From the NCBI GenBank assembly GCA_030537875.1, contig JAUNVC010000013.1, forward strand, positions 1 through 38,710: a stretch of DNA of 38,710 nt, read 5' to 3'. This stretch comes from Tissierellia bacterium. Its GTDB lineage: Bacteria > Bacillota > Clostridia > Tissierellales > Peptoniphilaceae. Positions 24,305 through 32,090 of this stretch are shown here, piece after piece (position 1 is the first letter of the stretch; each line of letters opens with the position of its first letter). A model generated the notes under the pieces. That model ran no database searches, was not told where the DNA came from, and worked only from the letters and a program-made list of their open reading frames with translations. A program made the position numbers and the translations under genes.

Positions 24305-25903
24305 TCACTTTCTTATGTCTTCAGGAGTACCCACATCGTAGATGGCATAGTCATCATATAAAATGCCATAGCCATATACCCCATAGTTCCCATAAATAAT
24401 AAATAGCTTCCTCGGTGCCGAACTTGGCGGAGCCTCATGTTCTGCCGTGAGGGCATTTAACACCTCGGTTCGCATAAATTCTTCATACAATCCATCATAA
24501 TCCTTAATCTGGTCATATTTCATCCTATAAATAATCGTCCCATCCTTTTCATATTGGGTCAGATACCCAGAGAAGATAGAACACGTCACAGCTTCTCCTT
24601 GGGCAGCATACACACCCTTTCCCACTTCCCTTATCTCTAAATTGGAGATGAGCGTATTGTGGGAATGCAAAATTAAATTGTAGTGCTTTTTAGACAGGTC
24701 TCCATCGCTCAATGGTAAAAAGGCAAATCGTGCAGGCAAAGCAGAAGACAACCGTGTAGAAAAAATATTAAGAGAACTCAAATCTGAAATATAATAAATG
24801 CGACCATGATAGGACACATCCAAAGTCATCCTCTCCCGATCTTCCCCCACATTTAGTATGAGATAATCGCCCTCTCGGCGAAAATAGTGATCCGAACCAT
24901 TGACCAAACACTCCTCCACAACAAAGGCCTTATCTAAACGAAGAATCACTTCCTCCGATAGGGGCGTCAATTCCATTTGACAATCTACCCTCATCTTCTC
25001 CCCCAAATGAATCTCTCCGGAATAGGATGAAACCGTGGCTGTAACGCCCTCCCCGGCGGTGTAGAGTTTTTGCACCGTATGGTATGAAACGGGATGAAGA
25101 CGAGTCCAAAGAACAACAGAACCCACCTCTAAGAAAAGGGTCACCATTACGAAGAAAAGAGCCGCCCTTTTGAACTTGGTCTTTAAAAACCAAAGAAACA
25201 GGATCACCAAAACCAATCCAATCAATACATAGGCAAACTTGGAAAGAAAATAAGCGTCCAAACGAGCACCCGTATAATCCAAATCAATCCCTCGCACAAA
25301 GGGCTTTTGCATACTCAAAAAACTCTCCACAATATGGTTTTCTCCTCGTAGAAAAGGTACTTTGGAAAAGAAATATTCATTGAGAAACGTGCAAAGAATC
25401 GTAACGGGAACAGCCAATACATAGGTAAAGGCACTCCGAATAAAATATGCAAAGAAAAATGCCATGGCGTGGGTAGATAAAATAATATTGCACCAACGAA
25501 TAACCATATAAAAATAGGCATAGAAATTAAACATCGCACCCGTACTTTCCATAAGAGAGCGGAGAATACCAAAAGCAAGTGGAATACAAAGCAAAAGCAA
25601 AGAAGAAAGCAAAATAGCCAGCATCTTACTAACCAGTATGGTGGCTGGACTGAAAAAACATATACTCTCAAGCTCCGATTCCTGTCGCATAAGATAAATG
25701 GCCATACAAAAAATAACGGCCATAATCACCACTTCCACATATTGATATAAATCAAACTCAATCACATAATTCATAAAAACAAAATCATTGTGACGCATGA
25801 TAAACATCATGGAAAGAAAACTCACGAGGATGAGAGCATAGCCCATCCAATAAAACCCACTCTTTAAAATTCGTTTCCAATGAAACCCTAACAAGCGAAA
25901 CAT
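24305..25903 (-). CDS. ABC transporter membrane subunit with large extracytoplasmic M1-N-domain-like region (532 aa)
   Basis: Residues 1-265 hold about seven membrane helices. Residues ~275-532 are soluble and probably outside the cell. That part (EKMRVDCQMELTPL, ILRLDKAFVVEECLVNG, ERMTLDVSYHGRIYY) has the beta-sandwich rhythm of M1-aminopeptidase N-terminal domains. No HEXXH zinc site is present, so it is not a protease. ABC-2 permeases fused to M1-like domains are known; their substrates are mostly unknown. GAGGAGG precedes the ATG. Just upstream lies a truncated copy of the soluble half (25921-26553). Confidence 0.75.
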   Translation of the reverse strand: MFRLLGFHWKRILKSGFYWMGYALILVSFLSMMFIMRHNDFVFMNYVIEFDLYQYVEVVIMAVIFCMAIYLMRQESELESICFFSPATILVSKMLAILLSSLLLLCIPLAFGILRSLMESTGAMFNFYAYFYMVIRWCNIILSTHAMAFFFAYFIRSAFTYVLAVPVTILCTFLNEYFFSKVPFLRGENHIVESFLSMQKPFVRGIDLDYTGARLDAYFLSKFAYVLIGLVLVILFLWFLKTKFKRAALFFVMVTLFLEVGSVVLWTRLHPVSYHTVQKLYTAGEGVTATVSSYSGEIHLGEKMRVDCQMELTPLSEEVILRLDKAFVVEECLVNGSDHYFRREGDYLILNVGEDRERMTLDVSYHGRIYYISDLSSLNIFSTRLSSALPARFAFLPLSDGDLSKKHYNLILHSHNTLISNLEIREVGKGVYAAQGEAVTCSIFSGYLTQYEKDGTIIYRMKYDQIKDYDGLYEEFMRTEVLNALTAEHEAPPSSAPRKLFIIYGNYGVYGYGILYDDYAIYDVGTPEDIRK

Positions 25904-25920: not shown

Positions 25921-26553
25921 CTACTCCCCATAAAATCCTCCATAATCCATAAGCAGATACTCATCCATACGTAAAGGATATCCATAGGTTTCATAGTCTA
26001 CGTGCATCATAAAAACCTTACTACAAGGGAAATCTTCTCCCTCTTCCCTTTCATTGGTTAGCCCATTATAAACTCCGTGTTGAAACCCCCTCTCATAGAT
26101 CGCTTCATAATCGGTCAAGCCATTATACTTCATCCGAATGATGGTATGACCATTGGAGCGTTCCTCTACAAAATATCCAGAAAACAAAGCCACACTGATG
26201 GACTCTCCCGTGAGATGATATTGATTTTTCTCACCGCCCTCTACCTGTAGATTGGAAACCACCGTATTGTGACTCAAAACCGAAAGATCAAACTGCTTCT
26301 TGGTCATATCCCCATCCATCAAGGGCAAAAAAGCAAAACGGGGTGGCAGAGCCGAAGCCCATCTGGTGGTGAAAATATCAATACAGTGAATCCTACTCAT
26401 ATAATAGACTCGGCCTTCGTACTCCAGAGTAAGAACCATCTCCTTTCCAACTTCACCAACAGACACCGTGAAGAAATCCCCCATCCTCTCATAGAAAACC
26501 TCCACTCCATTGAGAATGACCCTATCTAAAACAAAGGATTGATCCAGTATGTA
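25921..26553 (-). pseudogene. 5'-truncated duplicate of the soluble domain of the upstream-type membrane subunit
   Basis: The reading frame is clearly paralogous to the last ~200 residues of the 532-aa protein: ASALPPRFAFLPLMDGDMTKKQ matches ASALPARFAFLPLSDGDLSKKH, and GRVYYMSRIHCIDIFTTR matches GRIYYISDLSSLNIFSTR. Homology continues in frame upstream of the first possible start (GTG at 26505) to 26553 (ILDQSFVLDRVILNG against LRLDKAFVVEECLVNG). It then stops abruptly at a GC-rich hairpin. The membrane half and a ribosome binding site are missing, so I call it a remnant of a tandem duplication. Expression from the GTG is possible but unsupported. Confidence 0.75.
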
Positions 26554-26585: not shown

Positions 26586-27017
26586 TTATTGTACAGAAAC
26601 TCTTCCTACAACACCATAAGAATCATTGCTTTCGACTCTTGCATAGTGTTTTTGGTCAGGGAACTTAGGAACAAACTGAGGTGAACTGTTCCAATCACCG
26701 TTTGAACCTGTCAAAGACACAGAAATCACTTTTTTATCTGGTAAAAGTGTTATATTCCTATATAAGGTGGCAGTCACTGTCTTAGTAGAGCTAGATTTAA
26801 TAGATACACTTAAGATGGTGCTTTCAGCTGTGAGGTCCCATAGATATCCTTCATCCTCTCCATCCCATGTGCCTCCGCCCATTGGAATCGAATAATCTGC
26901 ACTTTGATAATCTGTCCGCGGCATGAATCCCATTGCATCAACGGTGGGTATAAGAACACCCAGTACGATGATTGCTACAAGTAGTGTAGCAACAGTATTT
27001 TTCTTGAGAGTAAACAT
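26586..27017 (-). CDS. Small secreted protein, unknown function (143 aa)
   Basis: A signal peptide (MFTLKKN, hydrophobic core, cleavage near VDA at about 28) is followed by a ~115-aa beta-rich mature domain with MGGGTWDGEDEGYLWDL and many Ser/Thr/Val residues; no Cys. I recognise no family. The GGGTW motif recalls lactococcin-972-type bacteriocins, but the rest does not match. The ATG at 27017 has AAGGAGG 6 nt upstream; an ATG at 27038 lacks one. It lies between the sigma-controlled genes and the ABC transporter operon. Confidence 0.7.
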   Translation of the reverse strand: MFTLKKNTVATLLVAIIVLGVLIPTVDAMGFMPRTDYQSADYSIPMGGGTWDGEDEGYLWDLTAESTILSVSIKSSSTKTVTATLYRNITLLPDKKVISVSLTGSNGDWNSSPQFVPKFPDQKHYARVESNDSYGVVGRVSVQ

Positions 27018-27059
27018 AATTCCTCCTTTTAAGATCATTTGTGGAAAACCACTGTTCTT

Positions 27060-27189: not shown

Positions 27190-27579
27190 TTACAGGGTAA
27201 GACGATTGGAAGTCTTTGATACTCTCTCACCATCTATATATAGAACGACATACACTCGGTACGTTTTTCCTGGAGTTCCAGAAACTGTTTCAGAAAAACT
27301 CAAGCCACCTGTATCATTGACAGACCATGAATCAACTTCTATCCATCCACCGCCATTTTTTCTTTGTAGATAAATGGTTCCTTGGATTGAAGCATTGTTA
27401 TTTATTGCGTTTACATAGGCTAATATATTTAACTTGCCGTATCTTTCGCTTAAAGTAACATCCAGTTGATCCAGATTTTCCCATCTTAGGTTTAATTCCT
27501 GTGTTCGCCTAAATGCAAAAACATTCTCCGGAAGAAAACAAAGGAATAAAACAAGAATTATACAAAGCTTCTTTTTTAT
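27190..27579 (-). CDS. Secreted protein with no standard start codon (about 129 aa, proposed AUA start)
   Basis: The frame is open from the stop TAA at 27190 up to 27618. It encodes a near-ideal signal peptide (KKKLCIILVLFLCFLPENVFA) and a mature ~105-aa beta-rich domain resembling a fibronectin-type or jelly-roll module (TIYLQRKNGGGWIEVDSWSV, then FSETVSGTPGKTYRVYVVLY). No ATG, GTG or TTG lies near the signal peptide. An ATA at 27579-27577 sits 7 nt after AAGGGGG, exactly where a start belongs. Either AUA is used or a mutated ATG has crippled the gene. The sigma-type promoter block at 27593-27629 lies 13 nt upstream. Confidence 0.6.
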   Translation of the reverse strand: MKKKLCIILVLFLCFLPENVFAFRRTQELNLRWENLDQLDVTLSERYGKLNILAYVNAINNNASIQGTIYLQRKNGGGWIEVDSWSVNDTGGLSFSETVSGTPGKTYRVYVVLYIDGERVSKTSNRLTL

Positions 27580-27592
27580 TTTATTACCCCCT

Positions 27593-27629
27593 TCACTTAT
27601 ATAACTAGAAAAATCTACCTAGGGGACAT
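27593..27629 (-). promoter_or_regulatory. ECF-sigma promoter block A (secreted protein gene)
   Basis: On the minus strand: ATGTCCCCTA (27629-27620), 13-nt spacer, AGTTATATAAGTGA (27606-27593). It is the same two elements at the same spacing as blocks B and C. The transcript would have a very short leader, with the ribosome binding site almost at its 5' end. Confidence 0.8.
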
Positions 27630-27650
27630 TTTTTTGAAAAATTATTGGAT

Positions 27651-28586
27651 TTATTTTTTTTGTACCGATTCCGCCATTTTCATTAGTTCTTCCATAGAAG
27701 CTTCACCATAGACATGACACATTACACCATCTTGTATCCACATAATATATCCTTTGTTTTTTTTCACCCATCGATACGCTTCTTCACCGTACATTTCAAA
27801 TGTTTCCACATCGGCCCCTCTTGTATCTAAGGCACTTGAAGTACCTTTTATTCTAACAAAGTGAATTCCAATAATTTGATTCTTAATATTTTTATACTCA
27901 TATACCACTATGAAGTTAGAGTTATTATCTATTGTTTTATACAATTCATATCCATCGGGAATATAGGTTGCTTCCAATTGATCAGGACGTAGAATTTCAT
28001 ATTCATAATCTCCCGATCGCATTCTTTTTTCCCACGCTTCTGAAAAATCAAAATCCGAATAGGTCTCTTTTCGTTCAATGATCCACGAGATAAGACCTCT
28101 CTTTCCAAAGGAACCCTCATTCAAAATGCCAGTCATCATCACTCCGAGTACAATAACAAAACAGGCCACTTTGGATAGGGGGGCAAAGGAAGGGAATGGG
28201 AGAATCTTCTTTTTGTTCCTGTTTGGGATTGGCTCAATTTGTAGTTCTTCCATTTGAAGTGCTTTTTTTACGGCTTTTTCCATGGATTGGGGGGCAATGG
28301 ATTTCCCTTCCAAGCCCAGGCTTGTCGCCAATACATATTCAGCGAAGAGAAGTTCTTTTTCTGGATCTTCCAAGGCTGTGATTTGTCGAATTTCCTCCCA
28401 GCTATGGGAAAAGCCGTAACGCAAATAGAGGATATGTTCATATTTCCACGGAAGATAGACCATCCTTTTTGCGAGGGTCTCTATTTGACTGTCTCCCAGT
28501 TCTATGAAAGAATCTATTCTCTCTGCCAATCTTTCCATATTCTCTTGTTTTAAAGTGTCAAGTAATTTCTTAAAAGATTCTTTCAT
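27651..28586 (-). CDS. Putative anti-sigma factor with DUF4367 extracytoplasmic domain (311 aa)
   Basis: The cytoplasmic part (1-130) includes a region resembling sigma region 4 (LPWKYEHILYLRYGFSHSWEEI). One membrane helix lies at about 134-152 (KVACFVIVLGVMMTGIL). The outer part ends in a DUF4367 domain (about 205-311: ATYIPDGYELYKTI, then GEASMEELMKMAESV). This layout, directly after an ECF sigma gene, is that of a membrane-bound anti-sigma factor. Its ATG has GGAG upstream and overlaps the sigma gene by 17 nt, so the two are made together. Confidence 0.8.
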   Translation of the reverse strand: MKESFKKLLDTLKQENMERLAERIDSFIELGDSQIETLAKRMVYLPWKYEHILYLRYGFSHSWEEIRQITALEDPEKELLFAEYVLATSLGLEGKSIAPQSMEKAVKKALQMEELQIEPIPNRNKKKILPFPSFAPLSKVACFVIVLGVMMTGILNEGSFGKRGLISWIIERKETYSDFDFSEAWEKRMRSGDYEYEILRPDQLEATYIPDGYELYKTIDNNSNFIVVYEYKNIKNQIIGIHFVRIKGTSSALDTRGADVETFEMYGEEAYRWVKKNKGYIMWIQDGVMCHVYGEASMEELMKMAESVQKK

Positions 28587-29100
28587 TGACTTTCTCCTCT
28601 ATACAGTTTCTGACTTTTTGTATGATTCTTTGATGGCGTTTTTTCATCGCTTCTTCTTTGACTTCCCAAAGGCTAGCCATATCTTTGATGAGCATTTGCT
28701 CAAAGAAACGCAAATGGAGCAACATTCTTTCTTCCTTGGAGAGTTGGAGCAAACATTCTTTGGCTTCTGGTAGGTATTCTCTTTCTTCTTCCATGAAACT
28801 GATTTCTTCGCCCAAAATATCCACTTCGTATGGTTGGACGATTTTCTGCTGATTGTAAAAATCCATGGTTTCGTTTTTGGCAATGACCATGCAATAGGCA
28901 TCTCTTTGATTTTCTGGTCGGGATAGGATTTTGTCCATATTTTCAGCGATTTTTATCATTGTGCTTCCAAGAACCTCTTCCGCATCGGGTTGGGATTTTA
29001 ATATGCGCATCGCCATTCTCAGCACTTTCTTTTCCAATCTCTGGAAGATTCCATCCATGAACTCTTTTTCTTCCGATGAAAGAACTCTATTCTTTTCCAT
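28570..29100 (-). CDS. ECF-type RNA polymerase sigma factor (176 aa)
   Basis: Region 2 spans about 15-90 (LEKKVLRMAMRILKSQPDAEEVLGSTMIKIAENMDKIL, then RDAYCMVIAKNETMDFYNQQ), and region 4 about 115-168 (LPEAKECLLQLSKEERMLLHLRFFEQMLIKDMASLWEVKEEAMKKRHQR). Regions 1 and 3 are absent, as in ECF (group IV) sigma factors. GGGAGG lies 10 nt before the ATG. A copy of the shared promoter block at 29152-29188 lies 51 nt upstream, which implies autoregulation. The anti-sigma gene follows with an overlap. Confidence 0.88.
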   Translation of the reverse strand: MEKNRVLSSEEKEFMDGIFQRLEKKVLRMAMRILKSQPDAEEVLGSTMIKIAENMDKILSRPENQRDAYCMVIAKNETMDFYNQQKIVQPYEVDILGEEISFMEEEREYLPEAKECLLQLSKEERMLLHLRFFEQMLIKDMASLWEVKEEAMKKRHQRIIQKVRNCIEEKVNERIF

Positions 29101-29151
29101 GTGAATTTGTCCTCCCTTTGGGACCGTTTTCTATATGGCGAATATATTCCT

Positions 29152-29188
29152 TCACTTATATAACTTGAAATTCCTCTTTAGGGGACAT
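29152..29188 (-). promoter_or_regulatory. ECF-sigma promoter block B (sigma factor gene)
   Basis: ATGTCCCCTA (29188-29179), 13-nt spacer, AGTTATATAAGTGA (29165-29152). Both elements are identical to those of blocks A and C. Confidence 0.8.
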
Positions 29189-29256
29189 GATAGGAATATG
29201 TTCCATATTATTTCTTTACTTCATTGCTTGTATTATACATGGTTTATACAAAAAAT

Positions 29257-29289
29257 AAAAGAGGATTCTTGACACGCCGCTCCTCTTTT
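29257..29289. terminator. Second terminator downstream of the 271-aa protein gene
   Basis: AAAAGAGGA/TCCTCTTTT stem with a 15-nt loop and T-runs on both strands. It insulates the sigma operon promoter from the gene to the right. Confidence 0.7.
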
Positions 29290-29334
29290 TCTCTCAAGGT
29301 CAAGCATTCTGGCTTTCTAGCATTTCTTTTCAAA

Positions 29335-29367
29335 CAAAAATAGTAGAAATTGTACAATTTCTACTAT
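29335..29367 (-). terminator. Palindromic terminator of the 271-aa protein gene
   Basis: A perfect 28-nt palindrome (29340-29367; each arm reads ATAGTAGAAATTGT/ACAATTTCTACTAT) is followed on the minus strand by five T. It lies 32 nt past the stop codon. Confidence 0.75.
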
Positions 29368-29398
29368 GTTTGATTTTACTGCATGGTCTATGTTGTAT

Positions 29399-30214
29399 CT
29401 AGTGGATGGCAGGTGTGTAAGACTTGAAACACTGCTCCAGTAAGGCTTTGCTTTTTGTGTATGCTTCTTCGGAATCTTCCAAAGCAAGGGACCATTCCAC
29501 TCCACTTTCTGCCAAGGCAAGAAGGTAGGTGTCTTCTACATAATCTAACACTATTAGTGGTACGGGATGCCGCGGGGTCTTCTCCAGCATCAGAGTATAT
29601 AGATGACCCGAGGCTCCGTCCGTTGCCTTTTCTTTGGTGAGAGCGTCATAAAAATCGATACGATCTTCTTTTTCTTCCCATTGGATGGCCTCTTTCATTT
29701 CTGCGGTCATGGAAAGAGTGAAACTGTGTTCTCCTAAGGTGAAGGTGACCAATTCTCCTTCATAATCTTTTGTCTCTCCATATGCACCAATGATGACGGT
29801 CTTATTTTCTCCGTCCCATGTCACTTCCATACCAAAGGCTTCGGCGACAAATCGTAGGGGAACATAGGTTCTCTCATCTTTCACAAAGGGGGGTATGTCC
29901 ATGAGTTTTTCTTTGCCATTGGCAATAAATTCCACTTTGGATAATTCCATATGAATGGCATCTTCTCCCTTTTCGATGTCAATACTTTGGTCTTCTTGAT
30001 TCCATTGGACTTCGTATCCAAAGCCTTCGCTTAGTGCACGCAATGGCACCAAAATTCTTTCCTTCTCCACCACATAATTTAAATCACGCATTTCTTTTCC
30101 TTGGACAAAGATGAGAATGTCCTGTTCCTGTCCTTCTTCTGCCACGACAATTTGGGTAAAACAAAGTCCCATCATCAGCACGGCAAGTAATATTGATACG
30201 CCTTTTTTATACAT
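29399..30214 (-). CDS. Secreted copper-amine-oxidase-N-domain (stalk) protein (271 aa)
   Basis: A signal peptide (1-26, ending VVAEE) is followed by two copies of the short motif typical of the 'copper amine oxidase N-terminal' domain: ERILVPLRALSEGFGYEVQWNQEDQ and ERTYVPLRFVAEAFGMEVTWDGENK, within about residues 30-125. These domains are wall- or surface-associated modules in Bacillota and have no oxidase activity. The C-terminal ~140 residues are of unknown function. ATG at 30214 has GGAGG 5 nt upstream; the ATG one codon earlier is too close. Promoter block C lies 73 nt upstream, so it is a likely sigma target. Confidence 0.85.
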   Translation of the reverse strand: MYKKGVSILLAVLMMGLCFTQIVVAEEGQEQDILIFVQGKEMRDLNYVVEKERILVPLRALSEGFGYEVQWNQEDQSIDIEKGEDAIHMELSKVEFIANGKEKLMDIPPFVKDERTYVPLRFVAEAFGMEVTWDGENKTVIIGAYGETKDYEGELVTFTLGEHSFTLSMTAEMKEAIQWEEKEDRIDFYDALTKEKATDGASGHLYTLMLEKTPRHPVPLIVLDYVEDTYLLALAESGVEWSLALEDSEEAYTKSKALLEQCFKSYTPAIH

Positions 30215-30287
30215 CATATCCTCCTTATCATTTTTGTTTGCGTTCCGATTTTCGCACCTTTTCCTGTTCTTTTTTTATCCCTACCCC

Positions 30288-30324
30288 TCACTTATATAAC
30301 TAGAAAAATCCACTTAGGGGACAT
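30288..30324 (-). promoter_or_regulatory. ECF-sigma promoter block C (stalk-domain protein gene)
   Basis: ATGTCCCCTA (30324-30315), 13-nt spacer, AGTTATATAAGTGA (30301-30288). The spacer is also nearly identical to that of block A. Confidence 0.8.
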
Positions 30325-30467: not shown

Positions 30468-32090
30468 ATGATTGATTCAAATTTACGTTTCTTCCTATGG
30501 AAGAGAAACAAATCTTGAACCCTTCTTTCCATTGGGTTGATTTTGGCCAGCAATGGGGTGTGGTTTGCCAATACATTCTTAAATATTGCCATGACAAATG
30601 CGGCCATAGAAAAGAATCTCCGCGCATTCTTACGGTATTTATTGTATTCTATCCTTGCCATGGCCATTCTAAACTTGGTCCAATACATAAACAACTTAGT
30701 GCAAGCCCGGATGATGGAGAATATTTCCAATGATCTTCGTCGGTCCTATTCTTTAAGTTTATATGAGAAGGATTTGCAAGATCCTCTTTTAAGAGATGTG
30801 GGTGGTTCCATTTCCAAGTTTACCCAAGACACTTTCTATATTACAGAAAAAGGAATGAATACATATTTTATTTTCATCAATGGTCTGATTTCCATCGCCA
30901 TGAGTCTTATCGCAGCCGTATGCATCCATTGGTCTTATATCATCATTTTCCCAGTGACCATGGTCATGTCCCTCATTGTGCCAAAAATCTTTTCGCCCAA
31001 GTTTCAGAAAGAATCACAAATCCTCGCCGAATATCGTTCCCTTTTTGTGGAACAAATCAAAGATGTGGTTGGTGGGCTATCTATCTTTAAGAGAAACAAT
31101 GGGTCCCTTGCCTATGGAGGGCATATGACTTCAGCTTCGGAAACTTTGTAAGATCATATGTTTACCTATCGAAAAAAGACAGCATTCTATCAAACAATCA
31201 TCACTCTCTTTTCTATTTTTTCTCAAGTACTCTATGTGCTTGCTACCCTCATTCTCATTTACAAAGAATATGTGACGGTGGGATCCATTGTCGGCGTGTT
31301 GGGTATTTCCCAATCCGTGTATACTTCAATAAACCAAGTCTTTGGATCCATCTCCATCCTCGCTGGAATAACTCCCATTTTCCAACGTCTTTTGCCCAAC
31401 GGGTTTTTACAAGAAAGGCCTTTTCAAGAAAAAGAAAGTCTCTCCATCGCATCCATTGAACTAAAAGATCTTTCTGTTTCCTATGGAGATAAAAAGATTT
31501 TGGAGCATTTTTCCATGGAGTTTGTTGGGGGGAAAAAATATGCTGTCATTGGTTCTTCTGGTTCTGGAAAGAGTACTCTTCTTAAAGTCCTTCTCAAGGA
31601 AAAGTCCTTCGACGGTGGAGAGGTCCGTATCAACGGCAGACCCATGGAAGAGATTCCCGCTCATGTGATTTATTCTTCCATTGGCTTTGTGGCCCAAGAT
31701 CCCTATGTGTTCAATCTTTCCATTCGTGAAAATATCACCCTGGGCGAAGATTTTTCCGAAGAAAAAATCCGAGCCGCCATCCAGCGAGCGGAGCTAGAAT
31801 CTTTCATTGCGTCTCTACCCAATGGACTTGATACGGTCATTGAACACAATGGAGCCAATATCTCCGGAGGACAAAAGCAGAGAATTGTTTTGGCTCGAGA
31901 ATATGTGCGGGGTAAGAATTTCCTTTTGATGGACGAGGGAACGGGATCTTTGGATAACAAAACCAAGATGGCCATTGAGCACCACCTCCTCTCCGATCCA
32001 GACCTCACCCTCATCTATGTTCTCCATCCAAGAACCAAGGAGGAACTAACCGTCTTTGACCAAGTCATCGAGTTGGGACCACAAAAATAA
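30468..32090 (+). pseudogene. ABC exporter (fused TMD-NBD) interrupted by two in-frame stop codons
   Basis: One frame runs from the ATG at 30468 (AAGGAGG upstream) to 32090, about 540 codons, the normal length of a half-size exporter. It is broken by TGA at 30516-30518 (codon 17) and TAA at 31149-31151 (codon 228) without any frameshift. The membrane domain has about six helices. The nucleotide-binding domain is complete: Walker A GSSGSGKST, Q-loop GFVAQDPYVF, signature ISGGQKQRIVLAREY, and a degenerate Walker B LLMDEGTGSLD. No ribosome binding site precedes the internal ATG at 31158. Most likely a young pseudogene; stop-codon read-through or sequence error are the alternatives. Confidence 0.8.

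Follow-up and report, generated by a model that had tools for sequence, protein, structure and literature searches.

Which sigma factor reads the three identical, promoter-like blocks that surround a small regulatory operon in a Tissierellia bacterium? The stretch analyzed here, referred to as the window, comprises 38,710 nucleotides (positions 1 to 38,710 of contig JAUNVC010000013.1, assembly GCA_030537875.1). On its minus strand, ATGTCCCCTA-N13-AGTTATATAAGTGA occurs three times in blocks of 37 bp with 0 mismatches: (i) 51 nt ahead of the ATG of an extracytoplasmic function (ECF) sigma factor gene (29152..29188), (ii) between an anti-sigma factor gene and the gene of a small secreted protein, hereafter sm (27593..27629), a position conserved in relatives, and (iii) 70 nt ahead of the ATG of a gene for a secreted protein with a stalk-type Cu_amine_oxidN1 domain (30288..30324). 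The blocks and their coordinates are exactly those listed in the initial annotation, as is the gene order, with the sigma, small secreted protein, and stalk protein genes each behind a block and the anti-sigma gene overlapping that of the sigma factor. Relatives share one module consisting of a sigma factor, a DUF4367 anti-sigma factor, the motif TGTCCC-N17-GTTATATA, and sm. The ECF sigma factor whose gene lies between the blocks very probably reads them as promoters, because the motif stays beside this module in distant relatives and its -35 bases covary with the sigma4 recognition helix; on both counts, the bipartite promoters proposed at the outset gain support.

The sigma factor (28570..29100, minus strand; 176 aa) consists of sigma2 and sigma4 domains only, as delineated by Pfam, NCBIfam, and helix alignment. 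Sigma70_r2 matches with E 2e-6 (28 bits, above the Pfam cut-off of 24), r4_2 with E 1.8e-5 (24.7 bits, just below its cut-off of 25.7), and the NCBIfam model TIGR02937 with E 1.5e-15, above its cut-off. A profile of the sigma factor retrieves 32 matches from the PDB, with SigW being the best, while a phmmer search of the PDB with the window protein returns nothing at E 0.01. The recognition helix reads EEAMKKRHQR, including the triplet K153-K154-R155, and the C-terminus lies only 18 residues past R158 of this helix, without a fused regulatory extension. Its gene overlaps by 17 bp that of the predicted anti-sigma factor (27651..28586, minus strand; 311 aa), which together with the domain matches bears out the assignment of an ECF sigma factor with an overlapping anti-sigma gene. 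With only sigma2 and sigma4 and an adjacent predicted membrane anti-sigma gene, the protein is, judged from its sequence, an ECF (group 4) sigma factor, and its group may already carry a number in the 2021 ECF classification.

Covariation of the -35 element with the sigma4 helix

A same-strand upstream sigma gene is present in 67 of 110 non-identical sm loci whose N-terminus is covered, and 48 of the 67 also have a promoter. Promoters were called by a fixed rule that requires TG followed by T or A at bases 1-3 of the -35, favors C at base 6, and ignores bases 4 and 5 as well as the sigma helix. The -35 classes seen are TGTCCC, TGTCAC, TGTAAC, TGTCCA, TGTTAC, TGTTGC, and others, and the -10 is often CGTTATA. 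Where the second residue of the helix triplet (K154 in the window) is K or Q, base 4 is C in 32/38 pairs, compared to 0/10 for other residues (Fisher 1.2e-6). Similarly, base 5 is A in 16 of the 23 pairs with R as the first triplet residue (K153 in the window) and in 5 of the remaining 25 (6.4e-4). Kinship among the sigma factors was handled by clustering only; with one pair per 45%-identity cluster (22 pairs), the counts become 17/18 vs 0/4 for base 4 (6.8e-4) and 7/9 vs 2/13 for base 5 (5.9e-3). When all 168 alignable sigma columns are scanned without residue groups across the 22 cluster representatives, K154 comes out on top for base 4 and K153 for base 6; for base 5, K153 is third, after two columns that lie elsewhere than in the helix. 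This covariation is the strongest evidence for the window motif being read by its sigma factor.

The crystal structure of SigW shows contacts of K170 with G′ at -31 and T′ at -32, and of T171 with A-34 (PMC6713349). On our reading of the two helices, K170 pairs with K153 and T171 with K154, and the covariation is in fair agreement with the structure. The middle A-A of the -35 is described as having no hydrogen bond to sigma4 in the SigE structure, and none is listed in that account for SigW (PMC6713349). In the present family, the middle positions vary and track two neighboring helix residues, which provides a directly testable code. How ECF -35 specificity changes is only partly understood, and ECF sigma factors serve as orthogonal switches.

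Placement of the motif and rival explanations

Within the window's own genome (1,185,696 bases), the core TGTCCCCTA-N13-AGTTATATAA with up to 3 mismatches is found at the three window places only, and a backward-read control gives 1 match. The absence of further copies, noted earlier by eye, extends to the assembly, which is 71.57% complete, so that additional copies may sit in the missing part. No 37-bp blocks arise in 100 dinucleotide-shuffled windows, even with 3 mismatches allowed. The shorter core TGTCCCCT-N14-AGTTATA, also with 3 mismatches, yields no extra site within the window; in shuffles it matches 0.99 times on average and at least three times in 9/100. Class-wide, the exact TGTCCC-N17-GTTATATA occurs at 17 places in 15 of 391 genomes. 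Three of these places are those of the window, three lie beside an anti-sigma or sm gene, one is near a partial sigma match, and ten have no module gene within about 1.5 kb. The backward-read control gives 15 places; this 14-letter pattern is therefore not enriched in the class as a whole, and the case for the motif rests on its place beside the module. In 15 genomes chosen for holding the module, 20 exact sites are spread over 12 genomes, and all 20 lie beside a sigma, anti-sigma, or sm gene or an sm relic (the two relics of genome G021 were judged by eye). The 25 one-mismatch sites in the same 15 genomes include four at modules, two in a second ECF set of G021, and 19 that are background-like, for a total of 45 matches with up to one mismatch vs 30 in the backward-read control. 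As for a common genomic word, the own-genome count and the class-wide rarity rule it out.

The window motif and the sigma protein were each used to search 101 genomes, made up of the window's own and those of 100 relatives; beside sigma relatives of 30-39% identity, the motif turns up in G021 (four copies) and G065 (three copies). The module is found in Alkaliphilus, Tissierella, Sedimentibacter, Anaerotignum, and others, where the motif lies 2-37 nt behind the anti-sigma stop and ahead of sm, and it is kept there although the sigma factors are only about 26-40% identical. All 44 loci of a genome scan were profile-scanned for sigma, anti-sigma, sm, and motif, and gene lists were viewed, in part, for 18 clostridial ones (L090-L107); the profile scan detects neither sm nor motif in the 26 loci L108-L133, which except for L132 belong to other phyla. 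The motif is missing from loci in which sigma and anti-sigma are present and sm is not matched (L067/L102, L101, and L103-L106), while L107 stops too soon behind the sigma gene for its presence to be judged. L094 and L097, also without an sm match, retain only a degenerate copy at the usual place, and L095 has an exact copy 1 kb ahead of its sigma gene along with an apparent sm remnant. In L069 (genome G042, apparently Neofamilia massiliensis), TGTCAC replaces TGTCCC before both sigma and sm.

Autoregulation is more restricted. Among the loci with upstream DNA, only three have the motif directly ahead of the sigma gene, namely the window, L066 (G021), and L069, where it reads TGTCAC; in the others, L095 apart, it is placed between anti-sigma and sm. 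The self-activation proposed in the initial annotation is for this reason qualified: motif placement supports positive feedback onto the sigma factor only in the lineage of the window and in two relatives from its family, and not as a general trait.

Three further observations concern the evolution of these loci. In one clade (L091-L093, L098, L162, L165, and similar), conservation extends beyond the -35 and -10 to a TTTTTTCCTCCTTGTGC-like spacer and to GGTAAGAACC behind the -10. The sm gene is duplicated or decayed in L066, L063, L064, L095, and L163 with the promoter still recognizable, which suggests fast turnover. G021 also has TGTCAC-N17-GTTATATA ahead of a lipoprotein gene and ahead of a paralog of the ECF sigma gene (L160 and L161), and these two genes probably constitute a second ECF regulon of that genome, differing in its -35.

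Several observations weigh against the blocks being promoters of this sigma factor and against the covariation that supports it. No promoter is called by the rule for 19 of the 67 sigma-linked sm genes (L175 is missed since its spacer is 16), and the residue groups were formed after viewing the data. Exceptions at base 4 are five sigma factors with RQY or RQR triplets and TGTTGC promoters, as well as L261. At base 5, the exceptions are the same five TGTTGC pairs, L237, and L259 (RKR with TGTCCC) on one side and L248, L261, L288, L196, and L297 on the other; SigW itself (K-T-R, TGAAAC) fits the base-4 rule and not the base-5 rule. Sigma factors with the same helix lack such a motif at the module in L067/L102, L101, and L104, and in Butyrivibrio and Oscillospiraceae, modules whose sigma helix is identical or similar show no TGTCCC site. 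One exact short-form site, away from the module, occurs in each of the L103 and L104 genomes (Butyrivibrio), and none in that of L101. L068 contains sm with only the variant TGTCCT, neither anti-sigma nor sm accompanies the exact site of L164, and most loci read have no motif directly before the sigma gene. Lastly, no promoter of this type was found in a second sigma-anti-sigma-sm set of the window's own genome (L234, described below).

These points have to be set beside what other explanations can accommodate. TATATA resembles the -10 of sigma-A, and local duplication could yield copies, the first and third of which share similar spacers; the blocks might then be sigma-A promoters that are alike by chance. 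This is very improbable, given that no TTGACA-like hexamer is seen by eye at 16-18 nt and that the -35 bases follow an ECF recognition helix. Moreover, the tabulation holds 25 sites from different genera that combine TGTCCC and GTTATA with the same spacing, and 24 of these adjoin a sigma, anti-sigma, or sm gene or a relic, although the table was gathered by that pattern, making its fixed letters and spacing partly a matter of construction, and L175 has a spacing of 16. The -10 is AGTTATA in the window and G021 and CGTTATA in all 18 other tabulated TGTCCC sites.

Operators of a DNA-binding regulator other than a sigma factor would be compatible with the spacer and downstream letters (TTTTTTCCTCCTTGTGC, GGTAAGAACC) kept within one clade. 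Such operators, to which we give an equally slim chance, are at odds with the asymmetry and ECF geometry of the motif, with window spacer letters that differ from those of other clades, and with the fact that the sigma column covarying best with base 4 belongs to the recognition helix; reading of the loci, which involved no systematic search, brought up no other regulator gene common to them. Slightly less probable still is a mobile or duplicated element that carries the motif together with sm as a repeat family. It would explain the duplicated and decayed copies of sm and motif in G021 and G065, with transposase-like open reading frames (ORFs) nearby, and the patchy occurrence of sm-like proteins, which 27/249 genomes of the order contain (E up to 1e-5). 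In the window, however, the motif also precedes the sigma gene and an unrelated gene with differing flanks, no sm relative was found in viral contigs (one scan, one sm query), and mobility would be compatible with promoter function in any case.

The proposed switch, its anti-sigma factor, and its outputs

With promoters read by the neighboring ECF sigma factor, the system would most likely work as an ordinary ECF switch that has a promoter type of its own. At rest, the membrane-anchored DUF4367 anti-sigma factor would hold the sigma factor, until a presumed cell-surface signal inactivates the former and frees the latter. For RsiV, a signal-peptidase route is known (PMC6066255), and a route of this type is one possible means of release here. 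RNA polymerase with the freed sigma factor would start at TGTCCC (-35)-N17-GTTATATAA (-10), with the sigma4 lysines K153-K154 predicted to read the CC of the -35. Transcription would then give more sigma and anti-sigma factor, in the window lineage, along with sm and the stalk-domain protein as putative outputs. An envelope-stress switch is a guess drawn from the protein class. Through the promoter, the widespread family of small secreted proteins to which sm belongs becomes accessible to study.

Class I anti-sigma domains are described as four-helix units binding both sigma4 and sigma2 (PMC7406223). In the window protein, DUF4367 lies at about 27663-27974 (PF14285, E 3.1e-16), and a single hydrophobic stretch is seen by eye at about 28116-28172. 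DUF4367 matches 13/13 members of an alignment (A6) that includes the window protein; DUF4179 does not match the latter and appears in 1/13 members, with E 0.0063. An extra sigma4-like domain is suggested at about residues 32-90 (28317..28493, minus strand) by HHalign and a PDB profile search. Across the clade, a stretch of the first 100 anti-sigma residues matches sigma4 of 24 other ECF sigma factors with an HHalign probability of 95.1 (highest of 60 column-shuffled controls, 2.1%) and the clade's own sigma profile with 87.5%; the PDB profile search ranks SigW sigma4 first, at only E 0.0021, and Pfam detects sigma4 in 2/13 A6 members with a best E of 0.14. A comparison of 94 non-identical DUF4367 anti-sigma factors, divided at 200 bits against the clade's own profile, repeats the sigma4 match (93.2%) in the 24 proteins above this score, which are also longer than the others (median 327 aa vs 240 aa). 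No resemblance to sigma4 emerges when the remaining 70 are pooled into a single profile (0.2%), although the segment is visible by eye in at least five of these proteins (L101, L103 twice, L104, and L105).

A sigma4-like domain in an anti-sigma factor would be an unusual inhibitory design, and to our knowledge, no such part has been described within one. PhyR is a known case of sigma mimicry, yet as an anti-anti-sigma factor. A bolder and rather doubtful proposal, which we put forward tentatively, combines two ideas: that the anti-sigma factor of this clade inhibits by sigma mimicry, with a captured copy of region 4 acting as its decoy or clamp, and that ECF -35 evolution follows a readable two-residue code. 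In this code, K or T as the first residue would specify C at base 5 and R would specify A, while K or Q as the second would specify C at base 4, V, I, or T would specify A, and M would specify T.

The sm gene (27190..27579, minus strand; 129 codons) encodes a signal peptide, recognized by eye, and has the apparent start codon ATA. Its frame has no ATG, GTG, or TTG near the beginning, which is why it is missing from the ORF list as a whole gene. The ATA would lie 7 nt behind AAGGGGG, a good ribosome-binding site, and the aligned close relatives begin with ATG. Secreted outputs, as initially claimed, are supported, with the apparent ATA start of the small protein's gene as one correction. The window protein has no Pfam match, and six close sm proteins that were scanned have no DUF6147 match. 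By profile, the family is remotely similar to the secreted proteins of DUF6147 (PF19644), below the Pfam cut-off: L195 gives E 1.1e-4 and L191 E 0.023, and the most similar distant member reaches 22.8 bits vs a cut-off of 24. No known Pfam, NCBIfam, or PDB family is matched at the usual cut-offs, and nothing on DUF6147 was found in the open-licence literature searched. Proteins resembling sm occur in 51/391 genomes of the class (E up to 1e-7) and in 44/398 of a phylum sample that partly overlaps the class set (E up to 1e-9).

In line behind sm lies the gene of a second small secreted protein (26586..27038, minus strand; 150 aa), which is possibly co-transcribed with sm; neither Pfam nor NCBIfam gives a match for it at E up to 1. 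The gene behind the third block (29399..30217, minus strand) encodes a secreted protein with a Cu_amine_oxidN1 domain (PF07833, E 1.5e-33). Its proposed role as a target, indicated by the preceding motif, is seen only in the window. Divergent from this promoter, an ABC transporter gene (30470-32090) is split in two ORFs by an in-frame stop near 31149. Elsewhere in the window, a 194-aa ORF (25921-26505) resembles, by eye, a duplicate of the C-terminal part of a neighboring 532-aa membrane protein (24305-25903).

The second set in the window's own genome (L234; G000 contig C65, 47500-55500) comprises an ECF sigma factor with an RKRYER helix, a short DUF4367 anti-sigma factor, an sm-like protein, another secreted protein, and an ABC transporter with an FtsX-like permease. 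The window set, too, has a secreted protein and an ABC transporter behind it. The ABC ATPase of L234 best matches TIGR03608, with 171.5 bits vs a cut-off of 254.85, and since this is far under the cut-off, a bacteriocin cassette for sm stays a guess.

Comparison with known ECF systems

In searches of the open-licence literature, no account turned up of this module, of a CC-type -35, of covariation with the helix in this family, or of a sigma4-like anti-sigma factor; there was also nothing on DUF4367 with sigma and anti-sigma factors, and nothing on topic by title for TGTCCC with an ECF sigma factor. For the three ECF sigma factors of C. difficile, the promoter consensus was given in 2020 as still to be identified (PMC7438776).

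Typical, though not exclusive, features of ECF promoters are AAC in the -35 and CGT in the -10 (PMC3426412). The initial annotation held that the window -35 is not of the usual GGAAC type. This is correct insofar as it carries CCC instead of AAC; on the other hand, TGTC has a precedent in ECF41, and CGT is present in the -10 of the 18 sites noted above. The ECF41 promoter is TGTCACA-n16-CGTC with a spacer of 16 ± 1 (PMC3426412), to which the TGTCAC variants in relatives come close, and because ECF41 already has a TGTC -35, the window promoter is a variant and not a new kind. The proteins differ more clearly. ECF41 sigma factors (SigJ, Ecf41Bli) are described as having a large C-terminal regulatory extension and no obvious anti-sigma neighbor (PMC3426412), whereas the 176-aa window protein has no such extension, a DUF4367 neighbor, and TGTCCC as its -35.

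The Bacillus pairs SigW/RsiW and SigV/RsiV resemble the window in combining an ECF sigma factor with a single-span anti-sigma factor (PMC6713349, PMC6066255). ECF30, with SigV-RsiV, is set apart by a DUF4179 anti-sigma factor in place of DUF4367. The SigW sigma4 helix aligns without gaps on our reading (K-T-R vs K-K-R), but the SigW -35 is TGAAAC rather than TGTCCC (PMC6713349), and the window anti-sigma factor ends in DUF4367 and appears to hold a sigma4-like domain. Compared with these systems, the CC-type -35, the sm output, and the anti-sigma factor with its putative extra sigma4-like domain are new as far as searched.

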